Assembly: GCA_011364905.1 (NCBI GenBank)
Contig: RDNZ01000005.1
Location: forward strand, 1 to 64,000
Length of the DNA stretch: 64,000 bases
Reading direction: 5' to 3'
From: Candidatus Thorarchaeota archaeon
GTDB taxonomy: Archaea > Asgardarchaeota > Thorarchaeia > Thorarchaeales > Thorarchaeaceae
Below, one piece after another: positions 58,648 through 61,644 of the stretch. A program made the position numbers and the translations under genes. Positions within the stretch are counted from its first letter, which is position 1. Each line of letters opens with the position of its first letter. The notes below the pieces were generated by a model. That model saw only the letters and a list, made by a program, of their open reading frames with translations, did no database searches and was not told the DNA's origin.

Positions 58648-59499
58648 CTAGCGATGAGCAATCACAACCATGCGTTCAGAATTAGAAGCATACGGAAGTC
58701 GGGGAAGAAAGTGCTGGCCGTAGAATTCCACTTTTGAGAATCCGACCTCTTCAAGCATCTCTCGAATCTCAAGGGCAGTATACACTCGGGTGTCATTATT
58801 TGAGAGCGCGTCTTTATCCATCAGGACAAGTCGATCCTCTTCCGTGTCGATAAACACAGCAGGACGACCGATGAGGACACCTGCATGTGCATCCAGAACA
58901 TGAGGCTCATTCAATAGAAAACCCTCTTCCAGTTGGGTCCAAGTCTTCTGGAACTTTGGCAAGTTGTAAGGATTCATTAGGTCAAGCAGAAGGCAGCCAC
59001 CCTCAAGCAATGCGTCATAGGTCTCTTTCAGCACATGCTTATTCATCTCATGATCAAAGAATCCAAAACTATGACTGAGCATGACTGCAGCTTTGAACTG
59101 CGATTTGAAGGACATGTCCCTCATATCGCCGGCATAGAAGTTGGTATCTACCTTGGCATCCTTTGCGCTTCTCTTTGCAAATTCAATCAAAGACTGCGCT
59201 ATGTCAAATGCTGTTACTTTGAAACCCTGCTTGGCAAATTCAATAGACTGGTATCCTGCGCCACAAGCGATATCCAGTATTTCATTGCCTTTCTTAAGAT
59301 TCAAGACCTCAATGATGAAGGATACAACGAGCTTGTCATACTGGTCAATCCCTTGAATTGATTGGCGGTGTCGTACACGAATGATTTCAGCCCAGAACTC
59401 ATCCCAGCCAAGTTCGACCTTCTCCATTGATTTGCACTTCCAATCGATGCCCTGCATTGACTTGGATATGAAGATTGTCATGGTGAAACTAGTTGTCAT
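58648..59499 (-). CDS. Class I SAM-dependent methyltransferase
   Basis: The core is ILDIACGAGYQSIEFAKQGF (motif I with the AdoMet-binding Gly), VTAFDIAQSLIEFAKRSA, NFYAGDMRDMSF and AAVMLSHSFGFFDHEMNKHV, a Rossmann methyltransferase of the ubiE/small-molecule type. A C-terminal region (LEIREMLEEVGFSKVEFYGQ) is usual for this group. The substrate is not predictable. The start is uncertain. ATG 59427 (MEKVELGWDEFW) begins the conserved part, while 59499 would add 24 residues without obvious domain content. A structured sequence lies 110-200 bases upstream on this strand. Confidence 0.82.
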   Translation of the reverse strand: MTTSFTMTIFISKSMQGIDWKCKSMEKVELGWDEFWAEIIRVRHRQSIQGIDQYDKLVVSFIIEVLNLKKGNEILDIACGAGYQSIEFAKQGFKVTAFDIAQSLIEFAKRSAKDAKVDTNFYAGDMRDMSFKSQFKAAVMLSHSFGFFDHEMNKHVLKETYDALLEGGCLLLDLMNPYNLPKFQKTWTQLEEGFLLNEPHVLDAHAGVLIGRPAVFIDTEEDRLVLMDKDALSNNDTRVYTALEIREMLEEVGFSKVEFYGQHFLPRLPYASNSERMVVIAHR

Positions 59500-59610
59500 G
59501 AAAAGATCGGTTTCACCAATATAGGAACAGACCTAACCTATCATTGTGGATGCTGCAGTGCGTTAGAGGTCGATGAGATTATGTTCACGAACGAGAAGAA
59601 AATTAGAAAA

Positions 59611-59698
59611 TGGAGAGTCCGCATTTTTCCTTTCTCCGCCGGGAGGGACGCAGTACAACAGGAAAACTCGAAATGAGCATAACCTGCGGGCTTCTCCA
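59611..59698. ncRNA. Candidate structured RNA, multibranched fold
   Basis: TGGAGAGTCCGCA (59611-59623) pairs with TGCGGGCTTCTCCA (59685-59698) through a single bulge. Inside, TTTTCCT (59625) pairs with AGGAAAA (59660) around a CTCC-GCCG-GGAG hairpin. A CTC-GAAAT-GAG hairpin follows (59667). The strand is open: on the minus strand it lies upstream of the methyltransferase gene, with a possible promoter TTTTTTAG near 59725; on the plus strand no promoter is obvious. No known riboswitch was recognised. It occupies the 423-base gap 59500-59922, whose remainder is A/T-rich with short inverted repeats. Confidence 0.45.
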
Positions 59699-59922
59699 CC
59701 TGAAACGAAGGTAAGTTATCTAAAAAACCTTTAGGTTGTCTACAAAAGTATCACTTTTGACTAATTTTCGTCAAGTCTTTCTAATTTTTGGACTGTTACT
59801 AAAAGATGAGTTGCGTATGGGAAAAAACCGGTCTTTGAACGAAATGAACAGCAAAAAATGAGGATTGCGTACCCAAATATGTGAATCAACGATATGAAAA
59901 AGGCAAATCAAGAAGTGATTGG

Positions 59923-59995
59923 TAGCCCCGCCAGGATTTGAACCTAGGTCCGGTGGGCCAGAACCACCGATGCTGGACCACTACACCACGGGGCT
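59923..59995 (-). tRNA. trnQ: tRNA-Gln (anticodon CUG)
   Basis: The 73-nt gene folds completely. Acceptor AGCCCCG pairs with CGGGGCT; the D arm is GTG/CAT; the anticodon stem GGTGG/CCACC encloses the loop TTCTGGC with CTG at 34-36; the T arm CTAGG/CCTGG encloses TTCAAAT; the discriminator is A. CCA is not encoded. Downstream on the minus strand is a CCTTTTTC run, the usual archaeal tRNA end. No intron is seen. Confidence 0.95.
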
Positions 59996-60101: not shown

Positions 60102-60848
60102 ATGCCACTCTGGTCGGAACTCACTCACGGAAACTTCAAAGAAATAGCTTGCAAAACTGAAGTTGTAGTCATGGTGACTGGAGCTCTCGAAGCTCATGGA
60201 AAGCACCTTCCTCTTGGGACAGATACAATACTTCCTGAGTCTCTCGGAACCCAGATAGCTAAGAGAACAAACGCACTAGTCCTTCCAGCAATCCCATTTG
60301 GTGAGAGCTGGTCGTTTGATCAGTACGATGGGACCATCTCGATTCAGTCAGATGTTTTGACAGGATACTATGAGTCAGTCATGACAGCCATATTCAAACA
60401 TGGATTTCATTATATTGTGGCATTGAATGGCCACGGAGGAAACGACCCGATTCTACGCCAAGCCGCGAGAAAGGCAACTCAAGAGGGGGAAAGGACAGTC
60501 GTTATCGTGAACTGGTGGAGAGATCTGGCAAAGTCTGTGCGAGAACTAGTAGAAGAAACTCCAGGAGGCCACGCGGCGGAGGATGAGACTTCTGAAGCCA
60601 TGCATGTACGCCCTGACCTCGTTGACATGACTGTTGCTGAGGCACATCGCATCGAAACGAAGTTCACCATTGTATCTGGGGCTTATCGAAAAGACCTTCT
60701 CCCATCCGCGGTTTATGGAGACCCAAGAAAAGCATCAGGGGAAAAAGGCAAAGCCATCATGGAACAGGCTGAGAAAGAACTCCTTGAGCTGATTAATCAA
60801 TTAGAACAGGGACAACTCCCTGTTGAAAAAACTAGATTCCAACCTTAA
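60102..60848 (+). CDS. Creatininase-family amidohydrolase
   Basis: The motifs are VTGALEAHGKHLPLGTDTI (metal Glu, His and Asp), IVALNGHGGNDPILRQA and GGHAAEDETSEAM with the metal and catalytic His/Glu pair. This family includes creatininase and hydrolases of riboflavin (ArfB) and mycofactocin (MftE) pathways, and it cleaves cyclic or linear amides with a metal pair. ATG 60102 (MPLWSELTHGNFKEI) is used. A longer frame back to 59919 is rejected because its first residues are an antisense reading of the tRNA. The 3' end overlaps the next minus-strand gene by 17 bases. ArfB-like function is possible since F420 genes are present, but not shown. Confidence 0.85.
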   Translation: MPLWSELTHGNFKEIACKTEVVVMVTGALEAHGKHLPLGTDTILPESLGTQIAKRTNALVLPAIPFGESWSFDQYDGTISIQSDVLTGYYESVMTAIFKHGFHYIVALNGHGGNDPILRQAARKATQEGERTVVIVNWWRDLAKSVRELVEETPGGHAAEDETSEAMHVRPDLVDMTVAEAHRIETKFTIVSGAYRKDLLPSAVYGDPRKASGEKGKAIMEQAEKELLELINQLEQGQLPVEKTRFQP

Positions 60849-61644
60849 AGATTAGGGCATCTCGAAGGACCCGTTGAAACATGCGTAGAAGGTTCTTTCC
60901 TTCAGTGGCGATAGTGTCAAATACCGGATATCCCTCCAAATCCAACATCTGGACCATATAGTCAAGGGGCAGTGCGTTTGGAAGGTCCCTCTTGTTCAAC
61001 GCCACAATGATAGGGAGTGTTGCCATCCTATCGGTACCTAATGCAATTCTGAGCTCTTGTATCGATGCAAGATTCTCATTCATCTGTTCAGGCGTAGAGT
61101 CTGCCATGAAGATTAAGCCATCACAATCTCGTAACACTTTGATTCGCTGGCTTGCATGTCGTCTCTGTCCAGCCACAGTAAAAACATCAAACACAACCAT
61201 CTCGCTCGCTGAAACCGGAACGAAGTCGAAGAAGGTCGTTCGACCGAGCTCATCATGAATCTCAATTATCTTTCCCTTGGCGAGCGAGCGAACATTAGCA
61301 AACAACCATCGGAGAGCAGTGGTCTTCCCAGAGAGAGATGGCCCATAGAAAACAATCTTGATGTGAACCCTTCCTACTTCGTCGCGTTTCAAGATATGAC
61401 CTGGTACAATCTCAGCCGCGCTTTGAGGCTTAATACTAGCCCGTCGAGCATACGCAGCGGTTGCTTCGGGATCAAAACGAACCTCCTCTGAAGAAGCGAC
61501 TAGCGTACCCATAGGTGCAGGAGTTGACTCAGGAACGGGTGGAGTTTCAACCGCAGGTTTGGCATCAACACTAACTTCTACTGATACTTCCTCTTCATCT
61601 TCAGGCTTCTTGGAGCGCCCGGTCAACCTGCGGAACACAGACAA
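60832..61644 (-). CDS. MglA-like small GTPase with long disordered N-terminal tail
   Basis: Residues 1-90 are rich in Pro, Glu and Val and look disordered. The G domain follows: P-loop GPSLSGKTT (101-109), IIEIHDELGRTTFFDFVPVS (switch I region, as in MglA), VFDVFTVAGQRRHASQR (G3, with the Mgl/Gln pattern) and NKRD (217-220). MglA-type GTPases set polarity in bacteria and work with Roadblock proteins (MglB); this window encodes such a Roadblock at 8061-8441. Asgard archaea have many related GTPases. The start is TTG 61644 with GGAGAGG upstream. The acidic, proline-rich tail is unusual for the family and may recruit partners or limit access to the core. Confidence 0.88.
   Translation of the reverse strand: MSVFRRLTGRSKKPEDEEEVSVEVSVDAKPAVETPPVPESTPAPMGTLVASSEEVRFDPEATAAYARRASIKPQSAAEIVPGHILKRDEVGRVHIKIVFYGPSLSGKTTALRWLFANVRSLAKGKIIEIHDELGRTTFFDFVPVSASEMVVFDVFTVAGQRRHASQRIKVLRDCDGLIFMADSTPEQMNENLASIQELRIALGTDRMATLPIIVALNKRDLPNALPLDYMVQMLDLEGYPVFDTIATEGKNLLRMFQRVLRDALIFKVGI

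Follow-up and report, generated by a model that had tools for sequence, protein, structure and literature searches.

A conserved, previously uncatalogued family of small structured RNAs in Candidatus Thorarchaeota with a nearly invariant hairpin and a C-rich loop

Small RNAs that interfere with ribosome binding provide the closest described parallels to the element reported here. In Methanosarcina mazei, sRNA154 and sRNA41 are stand-alone, intergenic, trans-acting RNAs that mask ribosome-binding sites, and sRNA154 is structured, its loop 2 carrying an anti-RBS sequence (PMC5867862). Gram-positive sRNAs with C-rich loops (the Rsa family, RNAIII) expose accessible UCCC motifs in hairpin loops, and pairing of bacterial sRNA UCCC loops with Shine-Dalgarno sequences has been proposed or shown (PMC3861533). 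The RNA considered here, an 88-nt element on the minus strand at positions 59,611–59,698 of the window (the whole 64,000-nt stretch of Thorarchaeota DNA that was analysed), is likewise predicted to be stand-alone and intergenic, and it presents a C-rich loop that resembles an anti-Shine-Dalgarno sequence. The M. mazei RNAs, however, come from another lineage, have known targets, and are likened to the present RNA by description, not by a comparison of sequences or folds. The Gram-positive RNAs are bacterial and unrelated; moreover, nothing in those precedents leads one to expect the invariant stem that carries the loop here. Riboswitches share with the present family a compact junction fold and a position upstream of a same-strand gene, but here the gene has a separate promoter-like element, opposite-strand genes intervene in some genomes, and no known aptamer matches. 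Archaeal RNase P RNA and SRP RNA resemble the element as single-copy, structured RNA genes of the housekeeping type. Nevertheless, it is not a missing copy of either, both having been located elsewhere in 11 of the 12 tested genomes; the one exception is the window's own assembly, which is 81% complete.

The window's element is a member of a conserved, previously uncatalogued family of small structured RNAs. In a DNA search of 99 related genomes, the majority of those in the window's family proved to contain a similar stretch, with the common motif CTCCGCCGGGAGGGACGCAG (plus strand). The first covariance model was built from nine relatives with the window's copy excluded, and that copy scored 49.1 bits against it; the score against model R2, built from 41 copies, is 60.8 bits (E = 8e-12). 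A covariance search in Asgard genomes, which the earlier note had proposed as a check, was carried out with R2 on 228 genomes of the phylum and recovered one copy each in 42 of the 47 genomes of the window's family, with all 13 genera represented, and no match in the 181 genomes outside it. A scan of 84,980 species genomes for the core motif gave 19 matching stretches, all titled Candidatus Thorarchaeota, and the motif scan of viral contigs gave no exact match. The covariance search detected no RNA in five genomes of the family: G001, G009, G042 and G046, which lack the neighbouring methyltransferase as well and may be incomplete, and G031, in which the methyltransferase is present. It should be noted that the genomes compared are mostly incomplete metagenome assemblies, and that two loci, in G022 and G032, are weak matches (35.4 and 27.6 bits).

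The supposition that no known class fits agrees with the database searches. At the gathering threshold, Rfam 15 recognizes only tRNA in the window; a permissive scan of positions 59,450–59,930 adds nothing but VrrA, matched at chance level and outside the RNA, and the loci of six relatives yield tRNA together with chance-level matches, again outside the RNA. The literature searched contains no description of a structured small RNA from Asgard archaea that corresponds to this family. The family would give Rfam a new Asgard entry and would also serve as a Thorarchaeota marker.

The RNA, with its 5′ end at 59,698, folds as a three-way junction closed by P1a and P1b, which agrees with the multibranched fold described at this position in the earlier note. 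The closing stem has 6 plus 7 bp, with one A.C mismatch and one bulged A, and there are two inner arms. The 5′ strand of P1a (UGGAGA, 59,693–59,698) pairs with UCUCCA at 59,611–59,616, and that of P1b (GCCCGCA, 59,685–59,691), the site of the family's strongest covariation, pairs with UGCGGAC at 59,617–59,623. P2 (CUC AUUUC GAG, 59,667–59,677) is a short hairpin that varies freely among relatives, with compensatory changes. The P3 arm (59,625–59,666), which bears P4, makes the window's copy a divergent one: it is shifted to UUUUCCU/AGGAAAA, whereas most relatives have CCUGUUG/CAACAGG. P4 (59,633–59,654) is nearly invariant, reading (A)CU-G-CGUC/GGCG-G-AG(A) in the window and UCU-G-CGUC/GGCG-G-AGA in the family, and has a purine mismatch at its centre. 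It is capped by the apical loop CCUCCC (59,641–59,646), which is CUCCC in one clade. All of these elements are given for the minus strand.

Either strand of the 88-nt stretch adopts the fold that the earlier note described. Folded alone, the minus strand of the window's copy is not stable beyond chance (z = -1.56, with 12 of 200 shuffles equally stable), and it is the comparison of copies that settles the reality of the fold. Covariation in homologues, the absence of which was to have spoken against the fold, is evident among the 41 copies: two-sided changes occur in 21 of the 31 pairs, against a mean of 10.6 in shuffles, and in 100 cells against 28. This rules out a chance fold. In the 41-copy alignment, which was fitted to the model, 89.5% of cells are paired, compared with 80.1% in shuffles and 44–50% with slid 3′ partners. 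Alignments A4 and A5 are biased toward the proposed structure, because it was derived from the very sequences that were then fitted to it, and the manual alignment of copies was adjusted by hand; safer evidence than the fitted alignments comes from the two-sided changes and from nine single copies, which folded independently into the same overall shape. The covariation signal sits in P1b, P2 and P3. P4 is hardly backed by covariation, there being zero two-sided changes in its CGUC/GGCG part; what backs it is its conservation, the independent folding, and the versions at loci L008, L009 and L030, which are rearranged yet still pair. The mismatch within it (G.G, A.G or G.A) stays a purine mismatch in most copies. 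A pseudoknot between CCUCCC and GGAGA of P1a is unlikely, since some genera have GACAG in P1a and yet keep the loop as it is. The copy lengths, which range from 77 to 116 nt with no consistent open frame, argue against a coding sequence with a conserved reading frame; the structure is conserved without coding constraint, as befits a stand-alone RNA.

Two features speak for transcription from the minus strand, the strand on which the earlier note had placed the element ahead of the methyltransferase: an upstream box whose distance is constant, and a U.G pair in P4. In 38 of 42 loci, the minus strand carries the box, ATTTATAGG or a close form of it, with its start 28–31 nt upstream of the 5′ end of the RNA. 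In the remaining four, the window included, the box finder chose ACCTAAAGG at -37/-38 (-38 in the window), and a TTTTTTAG-type box can be recognized by eye at the usual distance in the same four loci; the window's TATA-like TTTTTTAG, assigned in this way, lies at 59,720–59,727 (minus strand) and starts 29 nt upstream of the 5′ end. The U.G pair, present in 37 of the 41 copies, would turn into A.C if the plus strand were the transcript. A functional transcript from the plus strand would accord with the better folding of that strand when the window's copy is considered alone (z = -2.88, with 1 of 200 shuffles equally stable, vs. -1.56), but across copies it is the minus strand that folds better against mononucleotide shuffles (mean z of -3.4 vs. 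-2.5), and the aligned copies, read on the minus strand, contain 51 G-U cells vs. 20 A-C cells. Together with the constant distance of the minus-strand box, this leaves the plus-strand transcript highly improbable. A U-rich stretch directly 3′ of P1 (59,590–59,610, minus strand), with similar tracts in many relatives, is a possible terminator of the archaeal type; a scan for bacterial-type terminators found none. From these features we infer transcription from the minus-strand box and an end point: the transcript would start at the foot of P1 and end in the U-rich stretch.

The next gene on the same strand, beside every copy of the RNA found and always downstream of it, as the earlier note had it for the window, encodes a methyltransferase. 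In the window this is a class I SAM-dependent enzyme of 259 aa (58,648–59,427, minus strand; start MEKVELGWDEFW). The start (ATGGA..., LGWDEFW) is probably at 59,427, 183 nt from the RNA, and not at the upstream ATGs at 59,499 and 59,481, judging from the conserved N-terminus. The upstream ATGACAATCTTCATATC was considered as a leader peptide and rejected, its ATG being absent in several species. The gene is preceded by ACAANSTTCWTATC, 48–55 nt from the ATG in 41 loci whatever the distance to the RNA; it was not found before the gene at L015. The window's form is ACAATCTTCATATC (59,465–59,478, minus strand, 51 nt before the ATG). In G036, a relative, the element occurs once in 800 kb, at the methyltransferase, and it resembles the boxes of CTTAA type that precede tRNA genes in this genome. 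We read ACAANSTTCWTATC as the putative promoter of the methyltransferase itself, possibly one with a specific regulator. Methyltransferases carrying this element were matched at E <= 1e-40 only in the window's family (43 of the 98 genomes searched).

On the other side of the RNA, 221 nt upstream, lies tRNA-Gln(CUG) (59,920–59,995, minus strand), and of the relatives for which a tRNA was located, most have it 147–300 nt ahead of the RNA. ARAGORN names the tRNAs near the locus variously as Gln, SeC and Trp; a tRNA-SeC call in G036, which needs checking, suggests selenocysteine decoding. An Arf/Rag-like small GTPase with an N-terminal extension (60,832–61,644) is kept near the element in several relatives. 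The order tRNA, RNA, methyltransferase is generally conserved, so closeness alone is no proof of a functional link, which the constant position beside one gene could nonetheless reflect.

What this position means is the first matter on which readings of the family diverge. The earlier note suggested a riboswitch-like leader, and a cis-acting riboswitch or attenuator of the methyltransferase would explain both the adjacent, same-strand arrangement of all copies found and the succession of P1 and a U-rich stretch, which could form a conditional terminator. The details of the locus point elsewhere. The distance from the RNA to the methyltransferase ATG ranges from 64 to 1005 nt, while the promoter-like element of the gene keeps a constant distance, as does that of the RNA. 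Moreover, opposite-strand genes intervene in four genomes of three genera: a nitroreductase-family gene in G005, a roadblock-domain gene in G022 and G032, and a VapBC-like pair in G024. (The pair inserted in G024, at L072:1057-1732, consists of a MazE-like antitoxin and a PIN-domain toxin.) By sequence, these intervening genes and the separate promoter-like element do not fit a riboswitch, which shares a transcript with its gene, and G031 has the methyltransferase with no detected RNA. Direct pairing of the RNA with the methyltransferase start receives no support either, as no excess pairing was found and cognate pairs are no better than non-cognate ones. The leader reading is therefore improbable in our opinion, and the note's interpretation is not upheld in this respect. 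The family very probably represents a stand-alone small RNA gene, specific to Thorarchaeota and non-coding, with probable transcription from its own TATA box. The family, its fold, its single-copy state and its independence from the methyltransferase are well supported computationally.

How such a stand-alone RNA would act is considerably less certain. P1, P2 and P3 may form a variable scaffold presenting the invariant P4 hairpin with its CCUCCC loop, and the loop may be a trans-acting one that base-pairs with ribosome-binding sites rich in G (GGAGG/GGGAGG). Such pairing is our leading guess because the loop contains the CCUCC of the 16S 3′ tail (GGAUCACCUCCU; the 16S ends CCUCCU), because G036 shows an excess of GGAGG ahead of its starts (35 occurrences in 11 near positions vs. 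12 in 31 positions further up), and because of the sRNA precedents cited above. The complementary loop is also accessible in the predicted fold. Nevertheless, we hold this mode of the loop to be doubtful, and a stand-alone RNA with a trans-acting anti-Shine-Dalgarno loop, although the best explanation of the whole, is put forward only tentatively. The conservation of P4 is as high in its paired bases as in the loop, more than simple pairing of the loop would call for. For this reason, an RNA that works within a ribonucleoprotein is about equally likely. In that case P4, including the purine mismatch and CCUCCC, would be a sequence-specific protein-binding site, and the RNA a scaffold or regulator of the bound protein. 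In keeping with this possibility, the pairs of P4 hardly vary while P1b, P2 and P3 covary freely, the purine mismatch persists in most copies, and neither 800 kb of G036 nor rRNA offers a conspicuous RNA target. On the other hand, no partner protein was identified and Rfam holds no match to a ribonucleoprotein of such shape, and this second reading, too, is no better than a plausible suggestion. A bolder version joins the two: a lineage-defining Thorarchaeota RNA or RNP whose loop mimics the anti-Shine-Dalgarno tail of the 16S and thereby vies with the ribosome for many mRNAs, as a global translation regulator. We consider it unlikely; no such regulator of Asgard archaea is described in the literature searched. 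Since the family is well bounded and strongly folded, with a single copy in each genome and an invariant recognition arm, the targets or the protein partner can be searched for directly.

Several other roles were considered and set aside. Sites complementary to the core were sought in 800 kb of G036 and score no higher there than in shuffled sequence, which excludes, in that stretch, a trans antisense RNA with a single highly complementary target. The aligned copies, on inspection, have no conserved ACA or C/D boxes and no standard kink-turn, and no Rfam match passes, so an H/ACA or C/D box guide was rejected. A guide for rRNA was rejected as well, because the complementarity of the core to rRNA does not exceed that of shuffled cores (12/40 for SSU and 15/40 for LSU). 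As a separate observation on rRNA, archaeal SSU matches break at model positions 828/829 or 496/497 in five contigs (G024:C42, G021:C77, G017:C4, G008:C131 and G019:C23), and these breaks may be introns at conserved sites or breaks in the assemblies.
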